DNA from: Turnera subulata | Taxonomy: Eukaryota > Streptophyta > Magnoliopsida > Malpighiales > Passifloraceae | Length of the DNA: 64,000 nucleotides | NCBI GenBank assembly: GCA_028386065.3 | Contig: JAKUCV010007854.1 | Coordinates: 66,762 to 130,761, forward strand | Direction of reading: 5' to 3' | Part shown: positions 1,432 through 28,590 of the stretch, one piece after another | Position numbering within the stretch: the first letter of the stretch is position 1 | Layout: each line of letters starts with the position of its first letter | Made by a program: the position numbers and the translations under genes | The notes under the pieces: model-generated | Told to the model about the DNA's origin: nothing | The model's database searches: none | Seen by the model: only the letters and a program-made list of their open reading frames with translations

Positions 1432-1432
1432 G

Positions 1433-6479: not shown

Positions 6480-7600
6480 ACTCAAGTCTTTGCCCCATGA
6501 GAGAACCAGTCAACCCAGTCAAAAGCCAAAGACCTAGTCTTTGCAAACCCGAGAGATGAAGAACCCGTTCAGGAGAGAAACCAATAAGCCAGGAACCCGG
6601 TTCTTGCAAATCTCGAGATAAACCTGAGGGAATCCAGTAAAACCAGATGAGAGAAAAGCCAGAGAGGAGTCCAGACATGAGGGATCCAGACTTAGAAGAA
6701 CCTAGTAAAATCGGATGAGAGAGAAGCCAGAGAGGAATCCAGAGGTGAGCCAACCAAAAGTCGGGACCTAGCTCCTGCAAACCGAGAGATGAGAGAGACC
6801 AGACTTGAGAGAAAACCAGATGTGAGGGAAACCAGAAGCCGAGGACCCAGTTCTCGCAATCTTGAGATGATTAAGCCCAGAAAACCAGTCATGAGAGAAA
6901 TCAGGTGAGAGTAGACCCAGACATGAGGGAAACTGGAGAGGAGCGAACCTAGATGACCTAGCCATGAAAGAAAGCCGATAAGACAATAAGAGAACCTAAA
7001 GCCGAGACCCAGCTCCCGCAAACCGTTAGATGAATAAAGTAAGGTAAACCATGCGGGAGCAAACCCTAGGAGGGGTGAGGTAAACCAAACCATAAGGAAA
7101 TCCAGACATGAGAGAAACCAGTAAGCCAAGTGCCCAGCCCTTGCTAAACCTGAGATGAGCAAACTTTGAGACATACAAACCAGTAAGCCAAGGACCCGGT
7201 TCTCGCAAACCATGGGATGAGATGATTCCCGACAAAGAGATGTAGGGGCATGTGATGCCCAAGGTATAGACAACACAGTCGCGGAGCGGCATCTTAGACG
7301 ATGATAGGGGCATGAGATGCCTAGGGACTAGATAATCAGGCCGTGAAATGACATTTCTGACAGAAGTCAATGGCGAAGCCATTGGGATGAGATGATTCCC
7401 GAAAGTCATGACTTGGGATGAGATGATTCCCAAGTCGAAACCGAGTTGACAAGGATGAGATGATTCTTTGTTGATGACCCGATAGATGAGATGATTCTAT
7501 CACCTCAGGATGAGATGATTCCCGAGACATTTGATGAGAAGATTCCCATAAACCGAGGGCCGGTCCCTCAAACCTTTGGGATGAGATGATTCCGAAAGAG
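6480..7600 (+). repeat. Tandem degenerate near-palindromes before the 3' LTR of element A
   Basis: Two word families alternate. The first is a ~25-30 bp phrase of the form GCCGAGGACCCGGTTCTC followed by GCAAACC, whose core is nearly self-complementary. The second, GGGATGAGATGATTCCC, occurs about eight times between 7207 and 7590 in varying quality. The same two families occur in 14930-16110 at the equivalent place of the next element, so they belong to the family rather than to the site. Confidence 0.65.
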
Positions 7601-7704
7601 GAGCATGGGATGCTCCAACCCTTGGCACACACCACACATCTATCATTTAAATTTGGTTGTTCCTTTCTTACGTTGTTTGGTCCTTAGTCCCTAAGGACTC
7701 ATCA

Positions 7705-7716
7705 ACGAGGGGCATC
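7705..7716 (+). other. Polypurine tract of element A
   Basis: The purine-rich GCGAGGGGCATC-like string (here acgaggggcatc) immediately precedes the LTR start TGTGAACACCC. An almost identical string precedes the LTR at 16237, which fixes the start of both LTRs. Confidence 0.6.
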
Positions 7717-9507
7717 TGTGAACACCCAAATTTGACCCACGAATTTTCTACTAAAATTGGATTTTAAACATACTTGAACCTTGAATTGATGTGATGATTC
7801 TTTCCTAAGATTAAGACATGTCATGAATTTAACTTAGTAGAAATGATATATTTTGGTAATTTGGACCTTCATGTATTTGAACTTCAGGATTAATGAGATG
7901 ATTTAATCATAGAATAAAATATATAATAAGGTTTATTTAGGCTTGAATATATTTTAATCACTTGGGCCTTTTATCTATTTCTTAATCCAATTATTTTGAG
8001 ATGATTTATTCTTGGGTTGAGGATGGGTTTAAGGGCTCAAGTTAATTCTCCAGAGTTTGACTAGCCCATTAACACAATTCTTGCAGGTTAATTTTAGCTC
8101 TGATTTTCATTGAAAATCATCAATTAATTAGATTTTGTATTTTTTGTATGATTTTTCTCAAAATGGGTGTCAATATGTAATGGAATGATGTAAGAGAGTA
8201 ACAATCAAGTAATTGAGTGATTCTGGGTTGATTAGAGGTCGGTTTCGCGGTAGGATCAAATCAGGGCTGAATTAGGGGGATTGGGGGTTCGAAAATGTAA
8301 AGAACGGGTGACACGTGGACTGTCGGGCGGTCATCTTGCGACGACCTCCAGGTGCCGGCGGACATCCACACATGACCGCCGGCAATGGCGGTCATCACTT
8401 CCCAGATTCGCCCAAATCTCTGATTTTGTTTCTAATTTCGATCCTACGAGGTTTTGGACCAGATTTTTGGGCATAATCTTCACCATTAAGCAGGTCCACG
8501 CCCCTAGGCTTCCTAGAACACTATAAATAGGACCCCTCACACACATTTCAATGGATCAAGCTCTCATTACACACACACCCCCATAAGCTTTGTTTGCTTG
8601 GAGAAACTCTACTTCTCCAAGCCTAGAAACATTCCTATAGGCAGAAACTCTGGAGAAATTTTGTGGGAAAGCATAAAAAAAAAAAGCCAACAAGAGGAAA
8701 TCAAGAGGAGATCAAGAGGAGGAAGCAATCAAAAGCAATCTAGGAGCCAAGAAGGTGGGCAATGCAAGTAAAAGGGCCTGATGCAAGTAGTCTCAGAAAA
8801 CAATTTATATCTTGAGTTCTAGAAGTCAGAATGCCGTGATCTTGGACTCTCTAAAAAGCTAAGAGGGAGAGCTACAATGTTTCTGTTGAGACTAAAAGCT
8901 AAATCGGCCATTTACAATGTGCAAAATCCAGTACAAAACGATCTATAAATTTTGTCCAACAACTGAGATAGTGTTCTAACCCTTTTTAATTATGCACCTT
9001 ATTGATTGCTACTTGCTGGTGACTTGATGATGCTCTTGTTGATTATGTGATTGCTGTGATGCCATGTCAAGAACTACATGGGCTTTGAACCCGGTTGCCG
9101 GGGCACGTAGGTGGTCTCTAGTGATGGAGACTCAAGCCCAAATATTTTTATTCTTCCTTTTTGTTCCGAACCTTCTTCTCCTACCCCTCCAATTCAATTT
9201 TATTATTTTTCTATGATTTGTTTCCACACTTGCACACCTGCACAAGGCACACTTGTACTTTGCAATTGCACAAGGTTTCGACCCAACACAGATGGGTGCC
9301 TAACACCTTCCCATCCATGACGAACCTCCGATCCCATGTCTTTGGTTTGCCATGACCATGTAGCCTAAAGGAGTCATATAAAGTTTTTTCCAAATTTTGC
9401 CCTTAATAAAATTTGGGTGGCGACTCCAATGACATGGAATTGACCCGAGGAAGAAGGTGAAAGGATTAGGTGAATAGGCCCAAGTGATTTTGGGTCGGGT
9501 ATTCACA
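7717..9507 (+). mobile_element. Full-length Tat/Ogre-type LTR (1,791 bp)
   Basis: Starts TGTGAACACCC after a polypurine tract and ends GGGTATTCACA, giving TGTGAA/TTCACA terminal inverted repeats. It is recognisably similar to the LTR at 16237-17835 throughout but visibly diverged. It contains a GC-rich motif cluster (8321-8393), a TATA box TATAAATAG (8522-8530) and a decoy copy of the primer-binding motif, GTGGCGACTCC (about 9418), some 90 bases before its end. It is the 3' LTR of element A and sits where the 5' LTR of element B should be. Confidence 0.85.
8321..8530 (+). promoter_or_regulatory. U3 promoter module of the Tat LTR (GGCGGTCAT cluster plus TATA box)
   Basis: GGCGGTCAT words in both orientations (8325-8393, for example GACCGCCGG and GGCGGTCATC) lie 130-200 bases upstream of AGAACACTATAAATAG, whose TATA box is 8522-8530. 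The same arrangement is in the other LTR (16875-17066) and, on the opposite strand, upstream of the antisense ORF (14061-14250). Confidence 0.6.
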
Positions 9508-11894
9508 GGTGGTGCAAGAACCCAAAGGGGATGGGGAAAGGCTTAGAAGAGTGGAAGAGTTATTGAAGGCCATAAAGAAAAAAGAGAAAGATTGGAACTT
9601 GGATCGCTTATCTTTATTCCCCAAAGCTTGTTTGCTTGAGAAGTTCAAAATGCCAGACATCGAGAAGTTTAATGGAATGGAATGTCCTACGACTCATTTG
9701 AAAATCTATGTGAGGATGTTGCAGCCTATGGGAATCGAGCCTAAATTGATGACCCAATTGTTTCAAAGGACTTTTTCGGGAGCAGGCCTCAGATGGTTCA
9801 TGACCCTAGATGAGAGCAAGGTGAGCAAATGGGATGACATCTGCAGGAAGTTCTTGAAGCAATATAGCTACAACACTGAAGTAGATGTGACTAAGAGGGA
9901 TCTCAAGACGACCAAACAAGAAGCCCATGAAATTTTTTCTGCTTACATCTCAAGGTGGCACAGCAAGGCATCCTTGATGGTGAATAGACCCACCGAAGAA
10001 GATCAAGGGCAGATGGTAATCAAGAATCTTCAGTCGGTTTATTATGATCGTGTGCTTGGCAATTATTATGCCAATTTCAACGCGCTTATCAGGGCAGGAA
10101 TACAATTAGAGGATGCTATCAGCTCAGGGAAGATCAAGGCTTCCATGGATACTCCGACACCCAAGTCGAGTTTTAATGTAACCCATAAAAAGAGGCCTGC
10201 TAAAATAAATCATGTTGCCATCCAAGCACCATTGTAGATTGGGTCAAAACCCAGGAAATTCACCCCCCTCCCTATGCCCTTGGGGAAGATGCTCAAAAAA
10301 TATATGGAGAAGAACCTTGTTACAGCCTTTGGAGCTAAGGCCTGATTTGCCTCTTAAAGGGGATTCTAGCAAATTCTGTGAATTTCATCAAATGGCTGGG
10401 CATACCACTGATAGTTGTTCCCGAATTCGCCATAAAATCCAAGATTTGATAGAGAGGAATGAGATAATTCTACCCAAGAAACCTAACACCAAGTCGAATC
10501 CATTGCCCGTGCATGAGGAGATTGATATGATGGAGGAAGAATCTGAATGTGAGGGGGAATGTTTTGTACTAGATTTAAGCGAATATGTGGAGTCAGATGA
10601 GGAGGTCGATGTCATCACTAGGTCTAAAGGAGTAGTGAGGAGGGCTCCTCTGCGGTTGGACGAACCCGAGGAGACAGTGGATCCTGAAGAGGATATGGTG
10701 GTGAAACAATTGAAAAAACCTCAGGATAATATCTCGATTTGGGGTCTATTGATGTCCTCCCATCCACATCGGGAGAAGGTTCTTCAAAATTTAAGCAAAG
10801 CTCATGTCCCTATTGACACCGCACCAGAAATATTAGCCAACATGATAGCTTCCGTAGAGACCCACAACCAATTCTCCTTCTCTGATAAGGACCTACGCTC
10901 AGACAAAGGTGCCCATGTTGAAGCATTATACATAACCATTCAGGTCAAGGAAGGCCAAGTACCCCTAGTGTTGATAGATAATGGGTCGGTCTTAAATGTA
11001 TGTCCTTTGAAGACTTCAAGCCTATTGGGATTTGGGGCTACAGATTTCCTGCCCTCTCGGACGATGGTCAGGGCATATGACAATGCTCGAAGAGAAGTAT
11101 TAGGGATGATAAAATTAGAAGTGATCATTGGGCCTACCCTTTTTTCGATAGAATTTCAAGTGCTCAATATCGCATCTAGTTTCAACTTGCTTCTCGGAAG
11201 ACCATGGTTGCACCAAGCCCGAGCTGCATCCACTTTGCATCAGATGCTACGATTTCCTTATCAAGGGGGGATAGTCACAATCAAAGGGGAAAAGGCTGAG
11301 AAGAACATTAAGCCGGTGTTTAGAATTGAAGGAGATGAGGAAGTGTCCTTGCCAGGCTTCATCTTTGAGACTTTCAGTGCCATAATAGCAGATAAGCTCA
11401 TTCGTAGTCCTCCTTACTATTACCCTTTCGGCAACTTGGCAGTTATGGGAATCATGGAGAAAATGAGGTACTTTCCAATCATGGGGCTGGGAAAGAAACA
11501 GCAAGGGATGTTAGAAGGTCCTCAGGTTTTTAGCACTGCGCCACCTTTCAGTTTAGGTTATACTCCCACGACAATGGAAGTGGAAAAATAAAAGGAGAAG
11601 GATCGTGCAAGGGCATTGGCTCGAAAGAAGAAGCAAGAGTGGGATTTCGCCATAGCCCCATATTTCAAGACACTGAATGGCTACTTCATAATAGAGGGAA
11701 AAGATTTTCCTTTCTGTGGGTTCCCTGAACCATGGGTGTGCAGCATCATAAAGATCAGGAAGCCAGGGTTCGAGCTGTTTTTTTACTGTTATCCGGAAGA
11801 GGTGGGGGAGATAGAAGAGGAGGAAGAAAATGGGGATGAAGGGGATGGAGACTTCGGCTGTAGGAGCCTCATTGAAGAAATTGAAATTGCTTGA
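9508..11894 (+). pseudogene. Gag-protease remnant of Tat/Ogre-type element B
   Basis: Encodes a Ty3/gypsy Gag (about 9645-10230; capsid-like text around W(F/M)TL and the SKWDDICRKFLKQYS stretch), a Cys/His knuckle reading CEFHQMAGHTTDSC (about 10376), an acidic linker, and an aspartic protease with the active-site text LIDNGS (about 10971) and the usual LLGRPWLH near 11190. The sequence enters with no ATG directly after the LTR end at 9507, so primer site, leader and Gag N-terminus are missing. A TAG at 10235 and a frameshift near 10340 break Gag, and a TAA at 11589-11591 interrupts the tail, which ends with TGA at 11892. No reverse transcriptase, RNase H or integrase follows. Proteins of this type assemble the particle and cleave Gag. 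Inactive by itself. Confidence 0.82.
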
Positions 11895-12678
11895 AGATCC
11901 ATGTGGTAGTCCATGTTAGGTGTCAATTTAAAGTTCAAAAAGGGGGACTGAGGGGCGATTCGTTGTTTTGTTGTCTTTTCTTTTAATAAATAAAGGCAGT
12001 TTTTTCTTTTATATTGATGATTATCTTGGCAATATTCTTATGCATGCATGTTATGTGTGAATATGATGTGCTGAATGAACTCCCTAAAATCTATAAAAAT
12101 CAACCTGAGGGCTAATACTAATAAGAAGGATAGTAATATCAGCACAATTCTCAAAAACTCAAAAAGCCAAAGTTCCACCCAATGAAAGCATCGAGTTTCT
12201 ATATCCCTTGCAACCATGCGACCATGATAGTTCTAGAAAGTATCCAATGGGGGGAATGCCAGTCAAAGAAAATCCGATAAAGGCCGAAAATCTCACAACA
12301 TTTGGTGTTTGATCCAAAAATAAGTGGGCAAGCCACTGATCCCATAATGAGACATGACTGAAATCAAAGAAGGATTTTTGGGAATTCACAAACATAAGAC
12401 AATTGATGACACAAAGAGAAGTATGTGAACCTAATTTCATGAGCCCTTGAAAAACAAAAAAGGAAAAAAATAGAAAAAAGAAAAAAGAAAAAAAGAAAAA
12501 AAGAAGAATGAAAAAAATAGAAGAAAAAATGAGCCATGAATACGTAGGAAGCTCAGCTCGGGTCCGGTTCCACTCTTATTTACAATAGTCGAAAGATTAA
12601 CAAAAGATAAAGGGAGTTTGTTCACCCATTTATTCGCATGTATTATAAATGTAAAAGGGTAGTAGTTCAAGGTGGGAT
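11895..12678 (+). other. Spacer between Gag-protease and the antisense ORF
   Basis: Non-coding. Includes a run of A-rich sequence at about 12448-12530 (aaaaaagaaaaaa words). I see no gene or terminator here that I can support. Confidence 0.5.
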
Positions 12679-13994
12679 TCAATTCTTCTTGTGCCTTTTA
12701 CAGATCGCATCAATATCCCCACCTTTGTTCTCCTTGGTAAGGTGCTCGGAAGGTCCAAACCCAGGAGGCGTAGGCCCTTCCAAAAATGTCTCCCTTGCAC
12801 GGCACAAAGGCCCTTCAGAGTCGATCACATCCTCTTTCAACCACTCTAGATATGACATGGGAAGTTCTATCTTCAATTGGTTGCCAGTACTTTCTTTTAA
12901 AGGTAATGCCCAGCCCCCCTTTACAGCTTTCAAGGCTGCAGCCCTCATGGGCCCTATCATCGGAACTTGGATATTAGAAGGGATTGTCTAGTTTAAGCCG
13001 AACTGCCTCAGAACCTAATCAGGTGATAATATGTAGATCTCTCTATGCCTGGGAGTGTGACTCAATCATTACATAGGGTACGGATGACCACCACTTGCAT
13101 CTTGCATCCCGAGCCATCGACAGAACAAAGTAATCTGTTCAGCTTTGAGATCTTTCATATAGATGACCTAGTTTCGGATAGTGTTGAAGGAGACAGAATA
13201 ACCATGATGAATATAGTTTGTGGGATCAGTTTGGAGTCGCTCAATCAATATGAGGTGTTTGCATAGCCACATCTGCAAAAGGAGAAAAGGGTCAACACAA
13301 TAAAAGTGACAATTGGGAAGTGAAGGAGAGAACATATACCTGGAGCAAGAGAGGGGATCCAGTCATGGGAGTAATGGGATTATCTGCCAACATATCCAAA
13401 CAATTGAAAGTTTCACCCAATATCACAGGGACTAAACTCTTTTCATCAAAGAGTCTGACCACCAACGCGCCAACCCAAAGTCGACAAACACTGGGAGAGC
13501 CCACCAACAAGAACTCGTGTGTCATCACAAGGGCGAGGGCGTGATTGCGTTTCTTCCTCCAATCATGATCTTCCTCCCGCAGGTGTTGCTCTAAGCCGCC
13601 AAGAAAGTATTGGTCAATGATTTTCGATAGTTCCAGAAAGTTGTTTTGTTCTAAGAAGAAGCCAATCTTCCCTTCAGCTAAAAAGAGAAATTTACTAACT
13701 TCCTTCAAGAAAGCATCATCAAGAGAAACCGTGGCAACCCACTTTATGAATTTAGCACCTAAGAAGGCATTGAACTCATCAACAGTGGGACACAACTTTG
13801 TCATATCTTGGCCGAAAAAAATATCCGACGACTCTTGTCCCAGAATTTGGCAGCAGCATGAATCAGACTTTCGTTTATCACCAAGCCACGGAGCTTGTAT
13901 AATCTAAATAGCCCTAGCACTGCGAAACCATGCGACACACTGGAGGAAAACTTGCCATCCACTGAAGCACCTTAGCATGAAAATTCTCACTCAT
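12679..13994 (-). pseudogene. Antisense accessory ORF (plant mobile domain-like) of element B
   Basis: Read on the minus strand, an ATG at 13994-13992 opens a frame that, with a frameshift near 13900, runs through text typical of plant-mobile-domain proteins: HAAAKFWDK, then LCPTVDEFNAFLG (about 13760), then a helical region to about 13292. A last segment, 12960-12679, supplies a charged tail. Antisense ORFs of this type between pol and 3' LTR are an established feature of some Tat-lineage gypsy elements; their function is unknown. The ATG lies 67 bases downstream of a minus-strand TATAAATA box that copies the LTR promoter. Frameshifts and a stop near 13915 break the frame, so this copy is probably dead. 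The domain name is by resemblance only. Confidence 0.6.
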
Positions 13995-14060
13995 GATTGC
14001 CCTAGATGTATTTGGGATATGTTTTGATGAGTTGTGAGGGTCTATGAGTATTCAGGGGTT

Positions 14061-14250
14061 TATTTATAGTGTTCTGGGGGCGGTAGAATTCATGAAAACC
14101 CTAAAGCCCAAGCCTAAAACCGAAAAGGAAATGCACAGGGAGCTACGACCGCCAGCCCGGGCGGTTATACCATGAAAACCGCCGCACCTGGCGGTCATCC
14201 ACACAAGACCATCGGGTGTTGGCGGTTATCCACTAACTTGGCCGCCCGAC
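14061..14250 (-). promoter_or_regulatory. Antisense promoter module copied from the LTR
   Basis: On the minus strand the order is a GC-rich cluster of GGCGGTCAT/GGCGGTTAT words (14250-14146), including GTCGGGCGGCCA shared with the LTR at 16876, then CCCCAGAACACTATAAATA with the TATA box at 14068-14061. In the LTRs the matching text is AGAACACTATAAATAGG and CCCCAGAACTCTATAAATA. Spacing from cluster to TATA is also similar (85-190 bases here). The antisense ORF starts at 13994. Confidence 0.6.
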
Positions 14251-14929
14251 CAACACCAATGACCCGCCTAGAAAAATTCCAAAAAATCCAGAAAAATTAG
14301 GGGAGAGAGAAAAAGGGGAGGAGAGAAAGAATAAAAAGAAAAAGGGGAGAAAATGGGAGGAATACACATGTTATTTGAGGTCAAATTTTTTCACTTAGAC
14401 AAAGGGGGCACCTGTTGACTTTTTACTTGAATTTGCAAACGATAAGTGATTTTGTGTGAATAATGCCATGCATGCGAGACTTGTCGAGTTCAAATATATT
14501 TTGATGAGCATACAGCAGGGGCGCATCACCCATTTTGATTGATTCCCAGGAGCATGGCAGGCCCATCTACTCGATTCTCTTTGAAAAATCATATCCGATT
14601 TTGGGTTGAGACGCCCGGGATGATTATAAACTAGGGGCGTACTGGACCCCGTCTTTTTCAACCGTAACTAGATAAAGCTAGGGCATCATGTCCCAGCTCG
14701 AAAAAATCGAACAAGGGGCATGATGTGCCCGCATCTAGGCAAGGAGCAAGACATACCCCATTTCCTTCAAACCCACTAGGGAATCCGGGAGCACGAGAGG
14801 CATGTGATCCACACCACCTAGCCTTAAAGCAATATCTTCCCCAGACCAGTTAGACGATGAGCGAACCTGAGAAACTGAGAGATAAGACAACCAGGCCATG
14901 AAACGGCATCCATAACCTTCCCTAATAGA
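14251..14929 (+). other. Non-coding part of element B
   Basis: A purine-rich stretch (about 14280-14360) and unique-looking spacer. No gene seen. Confidence 0.45.
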
Positions 14930-16110
14930 CGATGAGAGTGAAAAGTCGAGGACCCGATCCTCGCAATCCTGAGATAAGATAAACTCAAAGCCGAGGACCT
15001 GGTTCTCGCAAACCCAGAGATGAGTCGACCTTGAGACAATTCCAAAGTCGAGAACCTAGTCCTCGCAACCCCGAGTTGAGATGAACCCAAAAGACAAGCC
15101 GAGGATCCAGTCCTTGCAAAACCCATAAACTGGGGACCTAGTCCTCGTAAACCTAAAAAACCCAAAGTCGAGGACCCGATCCTCACAAACCGTAAGCCAA
15201 AAACCCAGTTTTGCAGACCCAAAGCCAGGATCCAGTTCCTACAGACCATGAGATGAGCGAATCCAGATGTGAAGAAACCGAGAAAGGAGCAAACCTAAAG
15301 TTGGGTCCCAGTTCCCGGAAGCCTAGAAATGAATGAACCCGAAGCTGAGGACCCAGTCCTTGCATTGCTGAGTCGAGATGAACAAACCTAGATATAAAGG
15401 AGCCTAGAGAGGAGTGAACCCATAAGCCAAGGACCTAGTTCTTGCAAACCAAGCTGAGGACCCGGTTCTCGCAAACCTTGAGAAAACCAATCTAAAGACG
15501 GGACCCAGTTCTCGCAAACCTTGAGAGAAACAAATCCAGAGATGAGCAAGCCCAGAAGCTGGGGACCCAATTTTCGCCCTGAGTGAGTAAACCCTGAGAA
15601 GAGCAAACCGTGAGAAGTGTAAACCCAAAGTTGAGGACCTAGTCCCCGCAAACCCAAAGCCGATGACCCAGTTCTCGCAAAACACAAGCCAAGGACATAG
15701 TCCCCGCAAACATAAGCCGAGGACCCGGTTTTCATAAAACAAAAGCTGAGGAACCAGTCCCCCTAAACACAAAGTCGAGGATCCGATTCTTGCAAAACAC
15801 AAAGCCAAAGACCCGGCTCTCGCAAACACCGGGATGACATGATTCCCGAAAACCAAAAAAAATCTTGGGTTGAGATGATTCCCACAAACCACAACCTGGG
15901 ATGAGATGATTCCCACAAGCCGAAGACCCAGTCTTTGCAAATTACAAGCCGAGGACCCGGTTCTCATAAACCAAAAATATCACAACCCGAGATGAGATGA
16001 TTCCCGTAAGCCGAAGACCCGGTCTTCACAAACCACAAACCAAAAACCTAGTCCTCACAATCCAAAACTCGAGGGCCAGTCCCTCACAAACCTTTTGGAT
16101 GAGATAATTC
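14930..16110 (+). repeat. Tandem near-palindromes before the 3' LTR of element B
   Basis: Roughly two dozen degenerate copies of a 25-40 bp unit centred on GAGGACCCGGTTCTC and followed by GCAAACC, then about five copies of GGGATGAGATGATTCCC (15833-16110). Both are the same families as in 6480-7600. The cores are almost self-complementary, so each unit could form a short hairpin as single strand. Confidence 0.65.
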
Positions 16111-16236
16111 TTGAGGAGGAGCAGGAGATGCTCCAACCTTTGACACACACCACTCACATCAATCATTCAAATTTAGTTGTTCATTTCTTGCGTTGTTTCA
16201 TCCTTAGCTTCTAAGGACTCATCAGCGAGGGGCATC

Positions 16237-17835
16237 TGTGAACACCCAAATTTGACCCACGATTATTCTTCTATTTTTGATTTTGAACATGCTTGAACCT
16301 TGGGATTAATGAGATGATTTGGTCTTGGGTTAAGGCATGATAAACATTTAATTTAGTAGAATTTATATATTTTGGTAATTTGAACCCTTATGTGTATGAA
16401 TTCTAGGATTAATGAGATGATTTAATCTTAGGATAAAAATATATATTGAGATCTGATTTACTAAAATATGCTTTATCCCATTTATTTGGGCTTTCTTATT
16501 TATTTCAACTCAATTATATTAAGATGATTTATTTTTTGGTTAGGAATGAATTTAGAGGCCCAAGTTAATGGGATATGATTTTTCCAGAGTTGAGTAGCCC
16601 ATAAACACATTACTTACAGACTAATCTTGACTCTGATTTTTGTGGAAATCAGAACCAAATCATCCTTTAAAAGGTAAATGTATTTTTGGCATGATTTTTG
16701 CATAAAATGGGGAATTAATGTGTATCAATCAGTTATGGGATGATTGGAAGGAGTACTAATCAAGAAAAGAGAATTTTCTAGGTTGATTAGGGGTTAATTA
16801 CACGGTTAGATCAAATCAAGGCGAAATTAGGGGGATTGGTTGACGAAAAAGGAAAGAATGCGTAAAATCGGAAGAGTCGGGCGGCCATCTGGGGATGACC
16901 CCCAGGTCCTGGCGGTCATACAGTGATGACCGCCGGCCTGGTAGTCATAGGTGCCCAAAAAATGTTTTTTTGCCCGATTGTACACGGTTTTGGCCCAGAT
17001 TTCCGGCTAGAATCTTGACCATTAAGAGGTGCACGACCCCTACACTCCCCAGAACTCTATAAATAGGACCTCCAATTCACATCCGAAGGACACATAATCT
17101 CTCTTTCACACATACTCCCTATAAGCTTTGGTGCTTGGAGAAACTCTACTTCTCCAAGTTCAAAATCATTCTTAGGCAGAAACTCTGGAGAAATTTCGAG
17201 GGTAGCATCAATAAAGTGCAGCAAGAGTAGACCAAGAGGGGATTAAAAGATTTAGTTAAGGAGTGGAAAGAAGGTGGGTGAACAACACAACCCAAATCAA
17301 GGAGCTAGAGGAGGGCTACAAGAGGTAATCCTAAATCCTATTTTTGTCTACTAATTGTTGGTATTTTGATGATGATATTGATGATGTGAGTGTGGCGATG
17401 CCATGTCAAGAACTACGTGGGCTTTGAACCCGGTCCCGGGGTACGTAGGTGGTTTTTAGTGGTGGAAACTCAAGCCTAATTGTTTTTATTTTCCTCTTTG
17501 TTTCCATTTCATTTTATTATCTCTATGTGATTTGCTTCCACACAAACACACAATTTCATAAGGCATACAACATTCCTCAACTGCACAAAGTTTTGCCCCC
17601 AATATGGATGGGTGCCTAACACCTTCCCATCCGTGACAAACCCCCGGGCCCAATATCTTTGGTTCGCTAATCGGTTGCCTTAAAAGGAGTCATTGGGATT
17701 CAAGAACAGTTTTTCCCGAATTTTGCCCTATAATAAAATTCGAGTGGCGACTCCAAAGGTATTGGGTGACGGTGAAGAAGAAGATGTTAAGGAGTAGGTG
17801 AGGAGGCCCAATTAACTTTGGGTCGGGTCCTCACA
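16237..17835 (+). mobile_element. Full-length Tat/Ogre-type LTR (1,599 bp), 3' LTR of element B
   Basis: Starts TGTGAACACCC after the tract GCGAGGGGCATC and ends GGGTCCTCACA. TATA box TATAAATAG at 17058-17066, GGCGGTCAT cluster at 16875-16949, decoy primer-site motif GTGGCGACTCC near 17743. Similar over its length to 7717-9507 but with many substitutions and a ~190 bp length difference, so the two are not a recent pair. Tekay-type pol text begins in the next base, meaning this element inserted into a Tekay element. Confidence 0.85.
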
Positions 17836-18165
17836 TGTGAGTTCGATGTTATATTGGGCATGGTTTAGTTGTCCAGACGGCAAGAAATGGTGGATTGTCG
17901 GGCCAAAGAATTGTCCTTGTCTTAGGGCATCAATTGGTGTTCGTTGGAGAGCGAAGAGCTTTTTCGGCTTGCCGTAAATCGGCTATCTAGGCTTTCATGA
18001 TGATCCGAGAGGGATGTGATGCTTTCTCTGCTCATGTGGTAGATTCTTAGGTACCAAACTGGGCTTAGAGGATATCCTGACTATGCGGGAGTTTCCCAAT
18101 GATTTACCAAGGTTGCCTCATGAGCGGGAGGTAGAGTATGCGGTTGACTTAGTACGGGGAGTTTC
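17836..18165 (+). pseudogene. Tekay/Del-type gypsy pol, left fragment
   Basis: Translates as degenerate chromovirus pol: DVILGM followed by text like VDCRAKELSLS (end of the protease region) and then the linker up to EREVEYAVDLV just before reverse transcriptase. Several in-frame stops. It continues at 22875 after the copia insertion. The bases GTTTC (18161-18165) are duplicated at 22875-22879. Confidence 0.75.
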
Positions 18166-18549
18166 TGTTAGAACTCATGTCTCCTTGTCTCATTTCAGGG
18201 TTTTGATATTGACAAACCAAGCATGACTCAATTGATGACAAACAACCTTGAAGCAAAAAGAAATCAATCAAGGAACAAAGGTCCAAAGAGAAAAGAGCAC
18301 AAGAATTGAAGTAACAAGCAAGATGGGTTAGGAACACAAAATGTACAAGGGTAAAACACTCAACTCTTCTAAAGACATTGGCTCAAAATAAAATCAATTT
18401 TACACATGCATCAAATAGCATTCTTTCAAACATAAAAATGATTTCTGAGCATTGAACATCGATGTTCATGTTTTCAAACATCGATGTTCCTGCCTAGCAA
18501 TGTTCTAGAGAACAGGCAGTAGCCCAGAACATCGACGTTGGCTTCCCAA
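18166..18549 (+). mobile_element. 5' LTR remnant of the copia element
   Basis: Matches the first ~385 bases of the 3' LTR (21562 onward) closely and stops abruptly at 18549, where pol sequence takes over. It keeps the first three palindromes (18457, 18479 and the variant ACATCGACGT at 18530), with 22 and 51 base spacing, identical to the start of the array in the 3' LTR. Confidence 0.9.
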
Positions 18550-19128
18550 TCATGTCCTAAAGAGTCTCATCTTAAGGCAATTAAAAGAATTATGAAATAC
18601 CTAATAGGCACAATTAATGTTGGACTATGGTATCCTAAAGGTTCTACACTTCAACTCATAGGCTATTCCGACTCTGACTTTGCCGGATGCAAACTAGATC
18701 GTAAAAGTACTAGTGGAACTTGTCACTTACTTGGCAGCTCCTTAGTTTCTTGGTTTAGTAAAAAATAAGCTAGTGTAGCCTTATCCACCACCGAGGCGGA
18801 ATACATTGCAGCTGGTAGCTATTGTGCTCAAATCATTTGGATGAAACAACAACTTGAGGATTATGGTCTTACCATTAATCACATTCCTCTTATGTGTGAC
18901 AATACTAGTGCCATAACTCTAACTAAGAATCTAATCTTACATTCAAGGACAAAATATATTGACATTAGACATCACTTTATTAGAGATCATGTTCTCAAGG
19001 AAGAAATAGCTGTTGAATTTGCGGACACAAAATTTCAACTAGCCGATATTTTCACAAAACCCTTAGAGAAAGAGTCGTTCTTCCGAATTCGAAATGAACT
19101 AGGAATACTTGACTCAACATTAGTCTAA
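18550..19128 (+). pseudogene. Copia pol remnant: end of reverse transcriptase and RNase H
   Basis: Begins in the text SHLKAIKRIMKYL and LWYPKG of Sirevirus-type copia reverse transcriptase, then RNase H with YSDSDFAG, STTEAEYI and CDNTSAI carrying the expected acidic residues, then the canonical end RTKYIDIRHHFIRDHV and LADIFTKPL. One in-frame TAA (18766-18768) replaces a glutamine codon of SKKQASVAL-type text. Ends at the TAA at 19126. RNase H removes RNA from the RNA:DNA hybrid during reverse transcription. The deletion upstream makes this copy non-functional. Confidence 0.88.
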
Positions 19129-19263
19129 TTTATGCATCTTTTGTATGGTTCTATCGTATTGATTCTTTACTGACTTGAGCGTTGGAGTGTACTCTAAGTT
19201 ATTTTGCAGGTACACCTCATTTAGGCAAAAAGACAGGGGGAATAAGGATGCCGAGACTGCTAA

Positions 19264-19860
19264 ACATCGATGTTGCACACCAAAACATCGATGTTTGGAC
19301 TATACAAAACTGGCCCCGAGGCTGTAAACATCGATGTTGAGGATCAAACATCGATGTTGAGTGGACTAGAGTTCGTCTCATTTTCAACCAGTAGCTTACA
19401 ACATCGATGTCTACTCCCGACATCGATGTTTGTCTCATGTGCAGAATCAAGTCTTTAACCAGCATACTTAAACATCGATGTTCAGTATCAAAACATCGAT
19501 GTTCCGTAAGTACCCTCTTTTCCCAGTAATTTTAAACATCGATGCTTACAGGTAAGACATTGATGTTCTGTCGTTACTTGTTCAACTCTTTTCCAGTAGT
19601 CTGAAACATCGATGTCCTCACCGCCCAACATCGATGTTGTCTCGATTGTCGGCATTTCAGATTTTTTCTAGAGGCTCCACAACATCGATGTTGAACTTAT
19701 GAACATCGATGTTTTGACCTTACTTTTCAAAAAATATAGCCTTTGGGGAATCAAACATCGATGTCTTCAACCAGAACATCGATGTTTGACCGTTAAAATT
19801 TCAAAAATATAGCCGTTGGCGAGCCTCAACATCGATGTTCCTCTGACCAGACATCGATGT
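19264..19860 (+). repeat. Internal array of nine palindrome pairs (ACATCGATGT)
   Basis: Eighteen copies of the palindrome, starting at 19264/19285, 19328/19348, 19401/19420, 19472/19493, 19536/19557, 19606/19628, 19682/19703, 19755/19776 and 19829/19851. Distances within pairs are 19-22 bases (mostly 21), from pair to pair 64-76. Two copies are one-base variants. Later units also share CCGTT and AT-rich words with the LTR units, for example tgaccgtta followed by aaaatttcaaa. The array stops 187 bases before the ATG of the extra ORF. Confidence 0.92.
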
Positions 19861-20002
19861 TTATACGTTGTGATTCAAAAAAATAGCCGTTAACTAGCCG
19901 TTGGAGCCTGTTGCAAGGACTACAACGGCTCTATTTTTTGCTCCCCTATGTAAGTGATGCCTCCTTCTCTCATTTTACACACTTCCTACTGTTCATTCAC
20001 TC

Positions 20003-20010
20003 TATATTTA
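20003..20010 (+). promoter_or_regulatory. Possible TATA box before the extra ORF
   Basis: TATATTTA lies 38 bases upstream of the ORF's ATG and about 143 bases after the palindrome array. In the LTR, a consensus TATA box follows the array by about 99 bases. Weak by sequence alone. Confidence 0.3.
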
Positions 20011-20047
20011 CTCTCCACATCATTCTCCTACTCATTTTTTCTCAAGT

Positions 20048-21350
20048 ATGGCAAGTGGGAAGAAAAGTTCCAAAGGCAAATCTCCCGCTAAGGAGAGACC
20101 ATCCAAGCGAAGAGGAGGCTTCTCTAGCTCAGCCCCTCGCTATGCTGTGGAAGGCACCTCCATTTGGTTCTCTTCCAGGGCCCGACCTTCACAACTTCAT
20201 GTCTTACTTCTCCAAGCGGCTCATTGCAACCCCTTGTTATCTTCCAACAATTTACCCCGCCATGAAGAATTACACACAGCTGGAGCCCCTTCTTCAAGCA
20301 TTGGGATTATGGGGGTTCGTGACCCACAGTCAGCTTCAATTCAGTGGCGACTTTGTACGAGCTTTTTACTCCACCCTCCACCGAGATGGTGATAACCTGA
20401 CTACTCATGTAAATGGAGTCTCCATCAACATGACGTTGGAAGAATTTGGCACGGTTGCTGCCTTGCCTTTTCAGGGAGACGATATTGCATCATACGGAGG
20501 TGATCAATGTGCCACCATCCATGAACCACCCTTCCTAAATGAGCTTGGCTTCACGACCCTTGTTCGTCATAGTTCCGGGCGGCCAACCATTCAGACAATC
20601 AACCCGGAGTACCGACTTCTGTTCTACCTTCTCACCCGGATCATCAAGCCAAGAGACAACAACCACACAATCATATCCGTTGAAGATATGAAAGTGCTTC
20701 ATGCCATCCTTCACCATGCCCCAATTAATTGGGCACCATTTGTGCTTATGCACATGTCGGACTATCCGTCCACCTTTCCTGACCATCCCATATCATATGC
20801 CTTCCTAGTCGTGCGCATTTTGTTGCATGCAGGTGTCAATGCTCGGGTCGGTGCACAGGTTCCTCACTCAAAACTTTGGACAGTCAGTGATGCCACATTT
20901 CACAGCAGAAAATCAGTGGCAGAACCAAGGACCGGACAAACTTCCGAGCAAGCTCCAAGCACTGCTCCAGCAGAAAGCTCCCATGCTGCCGCTTCTCGAC
21001 GCCTACCCTCCGGAGTCACTCTTGAATCCATTGCTGATTCCATCCATGGTCTTCAATTAAGCATGACAAGCATGAGCCGAGCAATAGAAAGGATTGACAC
21101 AGAAGTGCAACGACAAGGCCACTCTCTTCGGTCTTACTTTGCCCGTGTGAACTACAATCCTCCAACATATCACACCACACTTCATGGCTACAATTTTGAC
21201 GATGAAGGTGATGATGATGATGAGGACTACACTAAAATTGTGGACGAAGATCCAATGGATGTGGAGGATGGTCAAGAAGGAGATGATGGTGAAGAAGGAG
21301 CAGCTGAAGATGAAAAGGATGATGATGGGAGCGAAAGCCAAACTTTCTAA
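20048..21350 (+). pseudogene. Extra ORF downstream of pol in the copia element
   Basis: The ATG at 20048 has A at -3 and G at +4. It opens a very basic Lys/Arg/Ser-rich N-terminus (MASGKKSSKGKSPAKERPSK...). A frameshift between about 20140 and 20185 moves the protein to the frame open up to TAA 21348-21350. That ~390-residue part has a conserved-looking helical core (FMSYFSKRLIATPCYLP, WGFVTHSQLQFSGDF, NMTLEEFG) resembling the putative plant transposon protein family found beside retroelements, then a Ser/Ala linker and an extremely acidic tail (Asp/Glu-rich from 21195). No membrane segment is obvious, so the 'envelope' label often used for this position in SIRE elements is not supported. Function unknown. 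Confidence 0.6.
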
Positions 21351-21545
21351 ACTCTTATCTCTTGTTATGTTTATGTCTTTTCAATTCAATAAAATGTTTC
21401 CTCTTGCTATTTCTTTTTGCTAATGCCAAAAGGGGGAAGATAAGAAGAAGTAATATGCACCAAGTTAGGGGGAATCATAGTTTGAAAAACATAGGGGGAA
21501 TTACATTCATAAAACTTGGCATACACTCTTATTTGTTTGTCATTA

Positions 21546-21560
21546 TCAAAAAGGGGGAAA
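21546..21560 (+). other. Polypurine tract of the copia element
   Basis: AAAAAGGGGGAAAT directly precedes the LTR start TGTTAGAA. Confidence 0.8.
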
Positions 21561-21851
21561 TTGTTAGAACTCATGTCTCCTTGTCTCATTTCAGGATTTT
21601 GATATTGACAAACCAAGCATGACTCAATTGATGACAAACAACCTTGAAGCAAAAAGAAATCAATCAAAGAACAAAGGTCCAAAGAGAAAAGAGCACAAGA
21701 ATTGAAGTAACAAGCAAGATGGGTTAGGAACACAAAATGTACAAGGGTAAAACACTCAATTCTTCTAAAGACATTAGCTCAAAACAAAATCAATTTTACA
21801 CATGCATCAAATAGCATTCTTTCAAACACAAAAATGATTATTGAGCATTGA

Positions 21852-22341
21852 ACATCGATGTTCAAGTTTTCAAACATCGATGTTCCTGCCTAACAATGTT
21901 CCAGAAAACAGGCAGTAGTCCAGAACATCGACGTTGGCTTCCCAAACATCGATGTTCTTGTGACCGTTGCACTTTAAACTTTTTGCAGCACCAGAACATC
22001 GATGTTTCAATTCAAGACATCGATGTTCCCTCAATTTGTTTTCTTTAGAACTTCGGCAGAGGCTCAAAACATCGATGTCCAAATGGCAAACATCGATGTT
22101 CATCATTAAGACATCGATGTTCCCATGATGCTCATCTTTAATTTGTTTTTGGCAGTGTTTCAAAACATTGATGTTCCCATGGCAAACATCGATGTTTTAG
22201 TAACCGTTAGACCTAATAATTCATATTAGCTATCACAACATCGATGTTCATTCATGAAACATCGATGTTCTCATGACCGTTAGCCCAAAATTTCAAATTT
22301 ACTGGCTAAAACATCGATGTTCCATACCTAAACATCGATGT
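21852..22341 (+). repeat. LTR array of palindrome pairs (ACATCGATGT)
   Basis: Fifteen copies starting at 21852/21874, 21925/21946, 21996/22017, 22069/22090/22111 (a triplet), 22165/22186, 22238/22259 and 22311/22332. Spacing within pairs is 21 bases in all but the first (22). The first member of each pair recurs at 73, 71, 73, 96, 73 and 73 bases; the 96 step is the triplet. CCGTT words follow several pairs (for example near 21963, 22203, 22276 and 22345). Two copies (21925, 22165) carry one substitution. Confidence 0.93.
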
Positions 22342-22439
22342 TGTGCCGTTGTGAGCAGACACCTTTTTCAACTCCCCATGCCATTTTGTCTAAAGGTGTT
22401 TTGGATTGATTCCATAACGATTATACATGTTTTGAGACA

Positions 22440-22448
22440 TATAAATAG
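22440..22448 (+). promoter_or_regulatory. TATA box of the copia LTR
   Basis: TATAAATAG 99 bases after the last palindrome. RNA would be expected to begin about 30 bases downstream, so the palindromes occupy the classic enhancer position of U3. Confidence 0.6.
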
Positions 22449-22874
22449 AGGATTTACATCTCTGTTTAAATGAATCAACTCTCTACATTTTAAGCATCAA
22501 TTATCATACATACATTGCAATTTTTAATGAGCCAATTTCCTTGAGAATTGAGAGTTGCCTTTATAGAGCTTTACTTGTTACTCATATCCACTATTTGAGA
22601 GAACTTTTGTTTGAGCGATTTTAAAGTGTTGTTCATACACCTTAAGGGAGGATTGTTCCCTTGTAGCAACTCATAGGAAGAGTGTTTTCTTTCCTTGAGA
22701 GAAGTCTTGAAGTGAGGTATCTTCAAGCAAGTAGAGCTTCGTGTGACTCGGGCTCTAGGTTTGTATACGGTTTGTTAAGCACCCGGAAGCTTAACCTAGA
22801 TAGTGAAATCTTCGAGAGAGTCNCCCCCCCCCTCTCTCTCCCTCTCTCTCTAGCGTAGGGCACCTATTCTAACA

Positions 22875-25700
22875 GTTTCTCCTATTTCTATACCGCCATA
22901 TAGAATGGCTACGACTGAACTTTAGGAATTGAAGAAACAACTGGACGAGTTATTGGATAAGGGTTTCATTAGATAAAGCATTTCACCATGGGGTGCCCCG
23001 GTCTTGTTTGTTAAGAAGAAAGACGGTAGTATGCGAATTTGTGTCAACTACAGGCAATTGAACAAGGTGACTGTGAAGAACAAGTACCATTTTTCCAGGA
23101 TCGATGACTTGTTCGATCAGTTGCAGGGTGCATCCGTGTTCTTGAAGATTGACTTGTGATCCGCAACCATCAGGTCAAAATTGCAGAGCAGGACATACCA
23201 AAGACTGCATTCCGCACTCGATATGGTCATTATGAGTTTGTTGTTGTTCTACTTAGGCTGACGAATGCACCGGCAATGTTCATGTGTATGATGCAATAGG
23301 TCTTCCATGAATTTCTGGATCGGTTCTTGGTAGTGTTCATTGATGATATCCTGGTCTACTCGAGGAGTGAGACCTAGCATGAGGAACACTTAAGAGAAGT
23401 TCTGCAGAAGCTCAGGAAACAACAGCTGTATGCCAAGCTCAGTAAGTGTAAGTTTTGGCTAGATGAGGTTGCTTTTCTCGGTCATATTGTGTCCAGTAAG
23501 GGCATTAAGGTGGACCCGGCTAAGATAAAGACAGTTATGGAATGGAAACCACCGAAGAATGTACCCAAGGTGCAGAGTTTTCTCAGACTTGCTGGTTATT
23601 ACCAGAGGTTCATTGACGATTTTTCCTTGATAGCAGGTCCCATGACGAAGCTATTAAGGAATGACTATGCCTTTTTTTGGGAATGACCGTTGCCAACAAA
23701 GTTTCGAGGAGCTAAAGATTCGGTTGACTTTTGCACCAATTTTGACCATTCCGATACCCGGTATGGAGTACACGGCAATCAGTAATGCTTCCCATTTAGG
23801 CTTAGGATGTGTCTTGACGCAGGAGGGTTGGGTGATTGCTTATGCCTCCAGAAAATTGAGAACTTATGAGGAGAACTATCCAACCCATGATCTGGAGTTA
23901 GCTGTTGTGGTTTTTACTCTGAAAATCTGAAGACATCATTTGTTCAGCGAGAAATGTCGGATTTTCATGGATTATAAGAGTTTGAAGGACATCATGACCT
24001 AATGGGATCTTGACATGAGGCAAAGACGATGGATTGAGCTTTTGAAGGATTATGATTGTACTATCGAGTACCATCCTGAAAAGGCTAATGTGGTTGCAGA
24101 TGCATTGAGCCAAAAGAGAGTTGCTTCTGCAGATGAGGACTTGGTTTATTATGCTTTGCCTTATTTGGTAGAGCTGAGGTCTTTGGATGTACAGTTAGAG
24201 GTGGATGCCACCGGGGCATTGCTAGCCAGTTTGAGCATCCGACCGACCTTGTGGGATAAGATTGTAGAGTTACTGTTCGGTGACCCTCATCTAGCAGAGT
24301 TGCGGGATAAGGCTCTCGGTGGAGAGAGTTATAATTTCTATATCCGAGAGGATGGTGCTTTGATGACCGGTGATTGGTTGTGTGTTCCGAATGTCGATGA
24401 TTTGAGGAGATAGATCATGGATGAACCGCACAATGCATATACTACGCATCCAGGTAGCGCCAAGATGTACTTGAGCTTGAAGAGTCATTATTGGTGGCCC
24501 GGTATGAAGAAGGATGTTGCGGAATTCGTGGCTCTTTGTATTACTTATCAGCTGGTGAAAGCCGAGCATCAGGCTTTTGCGAGCAAGTTGAGATCTTTGA
24601 CTATTCCGCAAAGGAAGTGGGACTATATCACTATGGATTTAGTGATCGGGTTACCAAGGACCCGGGTTCGACATGATGCTACCTGGGTCATTATCGACGG
24701 GTTGACCAAGTCAGCTCATTTCCTTTCTATTTAGTAGATAGATACAATGGATAAGCTATGTTTTGGGTGCTGTCAGACTATATGGGGTTCCACTATCCAT
24801 TGTGTCGGATAGGGATCCGAGGTTTATTTCCCACTTCTGGAAGAGTTTACAATCAGCTTTAAGGACTAAGCTGAATTTCAGCAATGCTTTCCTTCTGCAG
24901 ACTGATGGACAGTCAGAGAGAACTATACAGACACTAGAGGACATGCTTCGAGCTTATGTGCTCAACTTCAGTGGTTCTTAGGATGAGTAGTTGTCGTTGG
25001 TGGAGTTTTCCTACAACAACAGTTATCATTCCAGTATTGGCATGGCGCCTTACGAGGATTTATATGGGCGAAAATGCCGTAGTCCGATCTGTTGGGATGA
25101 GGAAGGTCTGAGACAGGTAATTGATCTAGACCTAGCCCAGGAGATTGTTGATCAGAACGAGGTGGTCAAGCAGTGCAAGAGAGCTGCTCAAGACCGATAA
25201 AAGAGTTATGCTTACAAGCATCATTGGGAGATGGAGTACAGTGTAGGTGATAGAGTATTCCTTCGGGTTGCTCCCTAGAGATGTGTTATCCGCTTTGGGA
25301 GGAAGGGCAAGTTGAGCCCTCGTTATATTGGTCCGTACGAGATCATGGAGCGGATTGGTCAGCTGACCTATAAGTTGGCTTTACCAGAGGAGCTTTCTCG
25401 CATACAAGATGTATTCCATGTTTCGATGCTGAGGCATTATCGGTCTGATCCTAGTCATGTCATATCCCCGTCAGAGGTGGAAATTTCTGATGATCTGACC
25501 TATATTAAGGAGTCGATGGAGATTCTTGCTCAGGAAGTACGGTAGTTGAGGAGTCGTACTATTCCTATGGTTCGGGTTAGATGGAGCCGTCATTCTCCGA
25601 ATGAGGCTACTTGGGGGAGTGAGTCCCATATGTGAGAGCAGTATCCACATCTATTCTGATGTCATATCTTGTAAATTTCGAGGATGAAATTTTAATAAGA
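22875..25700 (+). pseudogene. Tekay/Del-type gypsy pol, main fragment
   Basis: Continues the pol interrupted at 18165. Visible in order: reverse transcriptase ([32 protein letters not shown], catalytic FIDDILVYSR near 23335, [10 protein letters not shown]), RNase H (about 23690-23930, [16 protein letters not shown]), integrase (YWWPGMKKDVAEF; zinc-finger CITYQ in place of CxxC; WDYITMDLVIGLP; TDGQSERTIQTLEDMLRAY) and a chromodomain-like end (RYIGPYEI, DVFHVSMLRHY, then IPMVRVRWSRHSPNEATW). Chromodomains are typical of chromoviruses and guide integration to marked chromatin. More than ten stops or frameshifts occur. Several stops replace Gln, Arg or Trp codons by single C-to-T or G-to-A changes. 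Confidence 0.9.
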
Positions 25701-26755: not shown

Positions 26756-27298
26756 TGATGACATAAAGAAATTACCTTATGGGCTCAAGCAAGACCCCCT
26801 GGGTCTAAGCTAGTAACAAGACCCCCTAGGTCCAAGCTAGTAACAAGACCCCCTGGGTCCATGCTAGTAACAAGACCCCCTGGGTCCAAGTTGGTAACAA
26901 GACCCCCTGGGTCCATGCTAGTAACAAGACCCCCTGGGTCCAAGTTAGTAACAAGAGCCCCTAGGTCTAACTCTATACTTATACCCTCTCTTATTTACAA
27001 TGCCTTTGGGTCCAAGTTAACCCCCTGGGTCCAGGTCCACACGACCTCCTTACTCCTATAAATACACACCGGCTAGCTATAGTAAAGGTACGAAAAAATA
27101 ATTTGCAACTCCTCTCTCTCTCCCTCTTGAGAACTAAAAGCCAAGTTCTAACTTAGGCATCGGAGTACCTCTGGGGTCACGCACCCTAGACACCACAGTG
27201 TCCTTTTTTCTTTTCTCTCTCTTGTCTTGCAGGCATCAGAGCTTCACAATCTTGCCACATTGTGGCATCATTCACCAGGTAAATTTCTCAATTTATCA
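26756..27298 (+). mobile_element. 5' LTR of the small Tat element
   Basis: 543 bp. Seven tandem copies of a 27-bp unit, CAAGACCCCCTGGGTCCAAG plus ctagtaa-like end (26787-26975), precede TATAAATAC at 27057. The unit core GACCCCCTGGGTC is close to a palindrome. The 3' LTR has five copies. Confidence 0.9.
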
Positions 27299-27317
27299 TT
27301 TGGCGCCGTCTGTGAGG
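27299..27317 (+). other. Primer-binding site of the small Tat element
   Basis: TTTGGCGCCGTCTGTGAGG follows the LTR end directly. The TGGCGCCGTCTGTGGGAA-type site is typical of RIRE2/Tat-like gypsy elements. Confidence 0.75.
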
Positions 27318-27333
27318 AATTGGACAGAAAGCC

Positions 27334-28173
27334 ATGTCTGGAGAATAATTGAGTGTTCCGACCGAATCCACACCTCTAGGTGATGGAATAAGAGATACTC
27401 CAACTATACCCATCGTTGTCGGTGGTACTATAGGTGCTTCTATCCCTTCAAACCAGCCAAGCACTGAGACAGTAACTCGGGCAGAATTTATGCAGTTTAG
27501 GAATGAAATAATGGCTAGTTTGCATAAATTAATGCATGTAAACCCAATAGGGGATGCCGGAGAGCAGCATAGAGACATGGCTGGGAGAGAGCCTAGTCGT
27601 CCTACTCGTGACGGGGAAGTGCGGCCATCACAGGCAATCGCTTCTATTCGTCCCCCGGTTGAGAGGGAAGGAGAACAAGGAAAAGAGAGGAGAACCTTAT
27701 CAAAAAAGCGGGTAAGGGAGCTGATTGAACAACACCTACGGTCGGTGAAACGACAAGCAAGGAGAAATGAGATGGATGGCGTCTCACCTCTGAAGGATGT
27801 CGTCCGGCTTGCTCTGATACCAAAGAAATATAAAGCCCCATCTATTGAAAACTACGGTGGTAATACAGACCCTAGAGATCATCTTAAACAATACATAGGG
27901 ACGATGGGGATGTACGGCTACTCAGATGTTGTCCTATGTAAAGCCTTTCACACCACCTTAGTCAAATCAGCTAGGGAAGCACATGCACCTGTAACGGCAA
28001 CCACCAACATGGATTTGAAGAAAGCATTAGCTGCGAAAGGCCCTGAGAATGAAGATGATCTAATGGAAGAAATCGTTAAGCAAATTAATGTGGAGGATGC
28101 ACTAGCTCTAACAAAATCCCAGTTAGATGCAGTAATCGACAATGAGGGAATACCAAAATTTGAGGGAGAATAA
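27334..28173 (+). pseudogene. Shortened Gag of the small Tat element
   Basis: The natural ATG is probably 27334, giving MSGE and then a TAA at 27346-27348 where a glutamine codon is expected. The frame is open afterwards to TAA 28171. Text such as RAEFMQFRNEIMASL, then PKKYKAPSIENYGGNTDPRDHLKQY and LCKAFHTTL matches the N-terminal half of RIRE2-type Gag. Capsid C-terminus and the zinc knuckle are missing; the text jumps from KSAREAHAPV to an unrelated acidic end, suggesting an internal deletion. Some Gag-only elements are moved by relatives, but this one has the early stop. Confidence 0.75.
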
Positions 28174-28298
28174 GAATGGCAAATTCAAGAGCTAGAAGAT
28201 CACTACCCAGTACATAAAATATAAAGAATCTAAAAGGGCTCGAAGTTAGAAGCATTGCAGATTTCTTAAGTCTTTTTCCAGATGGTTCTGACGTACAT

Positions 28299-28590
28299 GA
28301 CCCCCCGGTCTTGTATGCAAGACCACCTTGGTCTTATCAATCAAAAAAAAAAAAAGAGAGAGAAAAAAACCCCCTCAGTCTTGTCAGAGAAAAGACCTCT
28401 CTGGTCTTGTAAAAAAAAAAAAAAGAAGACCCCATGGTCTGTTCAATAAAAAAACAGAAAAAAGAAGAAGACCCCCCGGGTCTTGTCAAACAAGGCTACT
28501 TAGTCGACGCTCTTATCAAACAAGACCCCCCGGGTCTTTACGCAAGTCCCCTTGGTCTTATCAAACAAGACCCCCCTTTCCAAACTAGGG
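28299..28590 (+). repeat. Short-palindrome repeats in the small Tat element
   Basis: About eight degenerate copies of AAGACCCCCCGGGTCTTGT-like words separated by A-rich spacers (best copies near 28473 and 28524). AAGACCC...GGGTCTT is self-complementary. Confidence 0.6.

Follow-up and report, generated by a model that had tools for sequence, protein, structure and literature searches.

Palindrome arrays in the LTRs and ahead of the accessory genes of a Ty1/copia and a Ty3/gypsy element of Turnera subulata

Two retrotransposons with accessory genes

A 64,000 nt stretch of the Turnera subulata genome (assembly GCA_028386065.3, contig JAKUCV010007854.1, positions 66,762 to 130,761 of the forward strand; hereafter the window) carries two neighbouring long terminal repeat (LTR) retrotransposons, one of the Ty3/gypsy and one of the Ty1/copia superfamily (Table 1). 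Each holds an accessory open reading frame (ORF), which is antisense in the gypsy element and sense in the copia element. The initial annotation of the window proposed that an LTR-type regulatory array lies ahead of the accessory ORF in both elements, and the site counts and shuffle tests described below bear this out.

Table 1. Features of the two elements in window coordinates
Feature	Position	Strand	Remark
Gypsy LTR	7718..9508	+	half-sites 8326-8395; TATAAATA 8522-8529
gag frames	9488..11588	+	PF03732 in 9488-10234; no Pfam match in 10209-11588
Predicted 67-nt GT-AG intron of antisense gene	13273..13339	-	exon 2 from 13272 downwards
Antisense accessory gene, exon 1	13340..13994	-	ATG at 13994; frame broken in window copy
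TATAAATA of antisense gene, in LTR-like core	14061..14068	-	
Half-site array (GGCGGTCAT/ATGACCGCC type) ahead of antisense gene	14148..14229	.	
Gypsy 3' LTR	16236..17834	+	half-sites 16880-16934; TATAAATA 17058-17065
Sirevirus-like Ty1/copia element, internally deleted	18166..22874	+	GTTTC on both sides, 18161-18165 and 22875-22879
Copia pol end	18554..19125	+	from the sequence, by eye
Linker array upstream of sense accessory ORF	19264..19860	.	18 ACATCGATGT palindromes (16 exact)
Position of TATA box in relative L077	19941..19956	+	window reads CTCCCCTATGTAAGTG
Sense accessory ORF, Transposase_32-like	20048..21350	+	
Terminal polypurine tract AGGGGGAA	21552..21559	+	starts 10 bp ahead of 3' LTR
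Copia 3' LTR	21562..22874	+	
Copia LTR array	21852..22341	.	15 ACATCGATGT palindromes (13 exact)
TATAAATA 3' of copia LTR array	22440..22447	+	from the sequence

The copia element has lost most of pol, and its 5' LTR is kept only as a piece (18166-18553, which matches 21562-21949 at 96.4%). What is left of pol we take to be RNase H-like, judging by eye from a motif; two frames of this segment gave no Pfam match. The accessory ORF scores 39.9 bits against Pfam Transposase_32, under the cut-off of 45, and is broken, such that its ATG lies in the frame 19958-20389 and the domain in the frame 19887-21347. Five AGGGGGAA tracts are present, with one before and three after the ORF in addition to the terminal one.

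These features match those given for Sireviruses in the passages available from Bousios 2010 (PMC2829016): palindrome arrays both within the LTR and ahead of an ENV-like ORF (here 15 and 18 sites), an LTR array followed by a TATA box, and several octamer polypurine tracts, the last of which (21552) starts 10 bp before the LTR (21562). The Tnd-1 motif ACAATCGATTGT in that work is close to the copia motif found here, and both lack the CGG-CCG core. The last base of AGGGGGAA, A, is as in Tnd-1 and ToRTL1.

The gypsy element carries its antisense ORF, together with tandem repeats at 15577-16067, between the coding region and the 3' LTR, which is the layout of Tat/Retand elements; Pfam found no pol domain in five of its ORFs. 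The label Tat rests on this layout. According to the parts of the Retand study consulted (PMC11963269), the region from pol to the 3' LTR of Retand elements likewise holds an antisense ORF and tandem repeats, some members are non-autonomous, and Transposase_28 is found in the antisense ORF of 97% of Retand clusters. In contrast, the antisense protein here is DUF7745-like (the best Pfam match in seven of ten copies tested, one of them above the cut-off), and Pfam detected Transposase_28 in none of these ten copies. The element is therefore not filed as Retand.

The two gypsy LTRs are 72-74% alike and may stem from different elements. Also, window positions 1337-1436 match the LTR end at 9413-9512 at 94%, and the sequences that immediately precede the LTRs at 7718 and 16236 resemble each other. 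The region 1337-17834 is probably an LTR-internal-LTR-internal-LTR arrangement left by an old recombination between related gypsy elements.

Array sites shared by LTRs and accessory ORFs

Exact copies of ACATCGATGT occur 31 times in the window, where a Markov-1 model predicts 0.05, and when one mismatch is allowed all 36 window sites fall at 18456-22341, within the copia element. Spacing is alike in the linker and LTR arrays, with 19-22 bp inside pairs and 43-54 bp from pair to pair; the single triple is in the LTR array. The commonest spacings (21, 52 and 73 bp) lie near whole helical turns, the helical repeat of DNA being 10.5 bp per turn. Alignment of linker and LTR scores 83, compared with a mean of 24.3 and a maximum of 40 over 200 shuffles. 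With palindromes masked, the score is 72 against a mean of 39.7 and a maximum of 59, although this is a weak test because masked letters still match one another.

The arrangement recurs among copia relatives. Five PF20167 elements were sampled from 150 listed of 1383 candidates and were read as short stretches placed by the window's own distances. Three of these carry the array both upstream of the ORF and in the LTR stretch (12+10, 16+14 and 10+11 exact sites), where most spacings are 20-22 or 51-55 bp and the few exceptions lie between 18 and 60 bp. In one sampled relative the upstream array is followed by TATAAATA, and the window differs at that place; where the relative L077 has CTCCCCTCTATAAATACC, the window has CTCCCCTATGTAAGTG. 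A count over the 519 Mb genome gives 30,225 occurrences of the exact palindrome pair AACATCGATGTT separated by 8-11 bp, versus 15 of a reversed control pattern, and the copia group must therefore be very abundant. By eye, one of the two sampled elements without the ACATCGATGT array has some other repeat in its LTR stretch and nothing similar upstream; the LTR stretch of the PF20167 element L086 holds a roughly 50-bp repeat built around CATATGG...CCATAT, possibly a different array.

The gypsy element shares more between its LTRs and its antisense gene. Aligned with the two LTRs in two orientations, the 500 bp that precede the antisense ORF (13997-14496) score 35, 36, 39 and 37 relative to shuffle means near 23, and these scores were reached by 3, 0, 0 and 0 of 500 dinucleotide shuffles. 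When the internal region (9509-16235) was scanned with the U3 module, the best match was to 330-bp stretches starting at 13889-14129 (score 39), and scores elsewhere did not exceed 26. The maximum over 764 stretches of 17835-64000 was 27. By our own reading of the sequence, the gypsy half-site pair GGCGGTCAT...ATGACCGCC has a CGG-CCG core, as do most Sirevirus motifs. The initial annotation had described a shared copy of the LTR module in each element. For the gypsy element this holds for both the array and the TATA core, whereas the window copia element shares the array only.

We examined the gypsy module in 30 antisense-gene loci of the same genome, which are the best-scoring of 150 listed among 1208 candidates, using half-site and core models trained only on the LTR loci L001-L030 (115 half-sites, 17 cores). 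At least two LTR-trained half-sites are present in 27 of the 30 antisense-ORF upstream regions, compared with four of 145 control windows from the same loci, and the mean number per upstream region is 4.07, against 0.13 for a Markov null. Both in the LTRs and in the antisense promoters, the half-sites for the most part switch direction from one to the next, at intervals of 15-17 bp. The best core match falls 84-86 bp ahead of the ATG in 25 of the 30. The three upstream regions without a half-site are L037, which has no such motif within 900 bp; L055, where by eye an LTR end lies upstream of the antisense gene; and L039, where the array is farther out and two TATA boxes are present.

Flanks were retrieved for 16 of the 30 loci. 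Excluding L070 and L075 (no LTR match) and L068 (part of the module), and including the window pair, leaves 14 elements in which an LTR could be compared with the ORF upstream region of the same element. In 11 of these, no more than 2 of 200 shuffles matched the observed similarity, so that the U3-like sequence expected upstream of extra ORFs was recovered in this own-genome survey of gypsy elements.

The antisense gene and its predicted intron

The antisense gene appears to contain a short GT-AG intron. Of 29 other copies, 27 have GT at the corresponding alignment position, 27 have AG, and 25 have both. The length of the intron in these copies is 66-84 nt, with a single exception of 52 nt, and all three remainders modulo 3 are represented. 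In exon 1, divergence from the window copy at the three codon positions amounts to 0.211/0.100/0.344, and the opening 120 nt of exon 2 give 0.147/0.201/0.266; the values for the intron are 0.247/0.252/0.221.

Stop codons were counted by frame over 29 copies, with L058 excluded here and from the read-through analysis. The final 210 nt of exon 1 hold 17/145/137 stops and the opening 210 nt of exon 2 hold 28/91/101, where the splice-anchored frame is given first. Unspliced read-through would meet a stop inside the intron or at most 30 nt past it in 28 of 29 copies, and in five of those 28 the stop is already in the last exon-1 codon.

The GT-AG intron and the coding constraint support a separate antisense gene with a transcript that is probably spliced. 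Moreover, an intron would be expected to persist through retrotransposition only when it runs antisense to the genomic RNA. Its presence thus supports a distinct antisense transcript on grounds that do not depend on the promoter argument. Of the proposal that accessory ORFs are transcribed separately, the gypsy part thereby gains from intron and coding constraint.

A search with the exon-1 piece returned no homologues at E<=0.001 among 285 candidates from a protein collection, and pattern matches in viral-contig and genome-contig collections yielded no confirmed relatives. The predicted fold of the exon-1 piece was dropped because of its low confidence (pLDDT 40).

A probable use of one array type at two promoters

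The architecture of both elements is best explained if each uses one array type at two promoters, that of the LTR U3 and that of the accessory gene, a reading to which we assign a probability of roughly 0.7. The array in U3 would drive the sense genomic RNA, and the array ahead of the accessory gene would drive a separate transcript, giving the accessory protein its own mRNA. One palindrome-binding factor, encoded by the host or by the element, may activate both promoters together. In the gypsy element the accessory mRNA would be antisense and spliced, and its intron would survive retrotransposition because the splice sites fail on sense RNA. The second array may be a duplicated piece of the LTR or may have built up in parallel, and the core shared in the gypsy element favours duplication.

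Promoter activity, binding by a single factor, co-regulation and splicing are all predicted from sequence, and several observations weigh against this reading. The window copia copy has no intact TATA box ahead of its sense ORF, and two of the five sampled PF20167 elements have the ACATCGATGT array in neither of the stretches read. Among Transposase_28 genes, found at 82 places, the single upstream region examined has no array. In the gypsy survey the LTR-trained core match exceeds the null maximum in only 9 of 30 upstream regions, and three of the 14 own pairs (L032, L035 and L050) fail the shuffle test. Counts over copies are also not independent, because the copies share descent. Finally, own pairs score only slightly above foreign pairs, a difference that is not significant (42.0 versus 38.7, p=0.051), so the module is family-wide and no covariation within the family is demonstrated; LTR-LTR and promoter-promoter similarities do correlate (Spearman 0.44, over pairs that are not independent).

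The published record holds precedents for both halves of the proposal, since an internal promoter has been argued for Sirevirus ENV and an antisense promoter has been reported for Grande gene23. Specifically, the passages of PMC2829016 describe palindromic repeated motifs in 13 Sireviruses. Extra linker copies occur in the nine that bear ENV, 77 of 79 of them upstream of ENV, and are absent from the four without it; an internal promoter for ENV is argued there, the promoter itself not being identified. Grande gene23, in a maize gypsy element, is an antisense ORF between pol and the 3' LTR that is transcribed from its own upstream promoter (Gomez-Orte 2013, as cited in PMC7264820). The gene23 passages of PMC7264820 mention neither an LTR-like array in this promoter nor an intron, and the words ‘intron’ and ‘TATA’ are absent from the main text of PMC11963269. 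In the literature sampled (including parts of PMC11963269, PMC12786077, PMC9289625 and PMC3091746), no LTR-like promoter or intron of a gypsy antisense ORF was found; Steinbauerova 2011 and Gomez-Orte 2013 may hold more.

The initial annotation saw here the best candidate for an undescribed system, which is not supported for the system as a whole: the Sirevirus half has been in print since 2010, and an antisense gene with its own promoter has been reported in Grande. The Ty3/gypsy half looks new. Relative to the passages of PMC2829016, which compare copia elements, the additions are the regularity of spacing, the TATA box after the upstream array of one relative and, chiefly, the finding that a gypsy element whose extra ORF is antisense is laid out in this way, so that the 2010 Sirevirus architecture is hereby extended to it. 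This points to convergence towards joint regulation of the genome promoter and an accessory gene. The initial annotation raised generality only as a condition; the surveys cover copies from this one genome, and the array-less copia elements and Transposase_28 gene mentioned above, together with the non-significant own-pair difference, speak against it. The arrays, TATA boxes and intron provide precise sites at which the expression and role of plant env-like and antisense accessory genes can be tested.

A bolder form of the two-promoter explanation would have the accessory protein itself bind the arrays, as a self-encoded activator or anti-silencer. The array by the accessory gene would then provide feedback, and that in the LTR would provide release from silencing. 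An element-encoded factor is made attractive by the parallel with the VANC proteins, whose targets are short motifs in the tandem-repeat non-coding regions of the VANDAL transposons that encode them, and which remove methylation there (from the portions available of PMC5735166 and PMC10398659). The two systems have in common short motifs in dense, repeat-borne arrays, their location in non-coding parts, and a transposon with an accessory gene. They differ in that VANDALs are DNA transposons for which binding and demethylation have been demonstrated, whereas the arrays here are known as sequence. That the arrays are dense and restricted to two promoters is in keeping with such a protein, as are the confinement of Sirevirus linker copies to elements with ENV and the predicted DNA binding of Transposase_28 antisense proteins. 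However, Sireviruses without env retain their LTR arrays (PMC2829016, in the passages cited), and a same-element ENV-like protein is therefore not needed there, which speaks against a general rule. Also, the exon-1 fold is of no use in this matter, and DUF7745 is silent on DNA binding. We regard this possibility as rather unlikely, and give no more credence to its fullest version, in which two superfamilies independently evolved a two-promoter regulon whose accessory protein binds helically phased palindromes at the LTR and at its own gene as a family-specific activator or anti-silencer loop, the gypsy protein being made from a spliced antisense mRNA.

Alternatively, instead of belonging to promoters, the arrays could act as signals for methylation, insulation or chromatin state, or could themselves be targeted by silencing. 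The ratio of observed to expected CpG is 1.16 in the copia linker, 1.08 in the copia LTR array, 0.89 in the gypsy antisense promoter, and 1.08 and 0.56 in the gypsy LTR arrays, so that four arrays stand at 0.89-1.16 compared with 0.55 for the window; such arrays are linked to CpG islands in Sireviruses as well (PMC2829016, same passages). In contrast, the arrays lie just upstream of TATA boxes in the LTR and in the antisense promoter, and the kept CpGs argue against long silencing, although the 0.56 belongs to the LTR at 16236-17834. We consider this explanation rather unlikely.

Similarly improbable is that the copia accessory ORF is expressed off the LTR transcript, through splicing or suppression of a stop, with the array serving another role. 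Stop suppression has been reported for SIRE1 and splice acceptors have been predicted for BAGY2 and Athila (per those parts of PMC2829016), and the window copia has no intact TATA box ahead of the ORF. However, the array sits directly upstream of the ORF in three of five sampled elements, one of them with a TATA box, and this route is impossible for the antisense gypsy ORF. Least of all do we credit neutral tandem repeats spread by slippage and placed before the ORFs by chance or descent, since, despite the 73-bp tandem units within the copia arrays and the shared descent of all copies, ACATCGATGT is 98.8% conserved over 33 copia sites where its flanks are 39.6% conserved, and gypsy half-sites are kept in most copies and rare in control windows.

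Elsewhere in the window, a small LTR-like element (26756-30000) has stretches at 26844-27292 and 29551-30000 that are 94% alike and each hold a 27-bp tandem repeat, and between them a 274-aa ORF with no Pfam match. Pieces of a cytokinin dehydrogenase gene (FAD_binding_4, Cytokin-bind) lie at 48109-50607.

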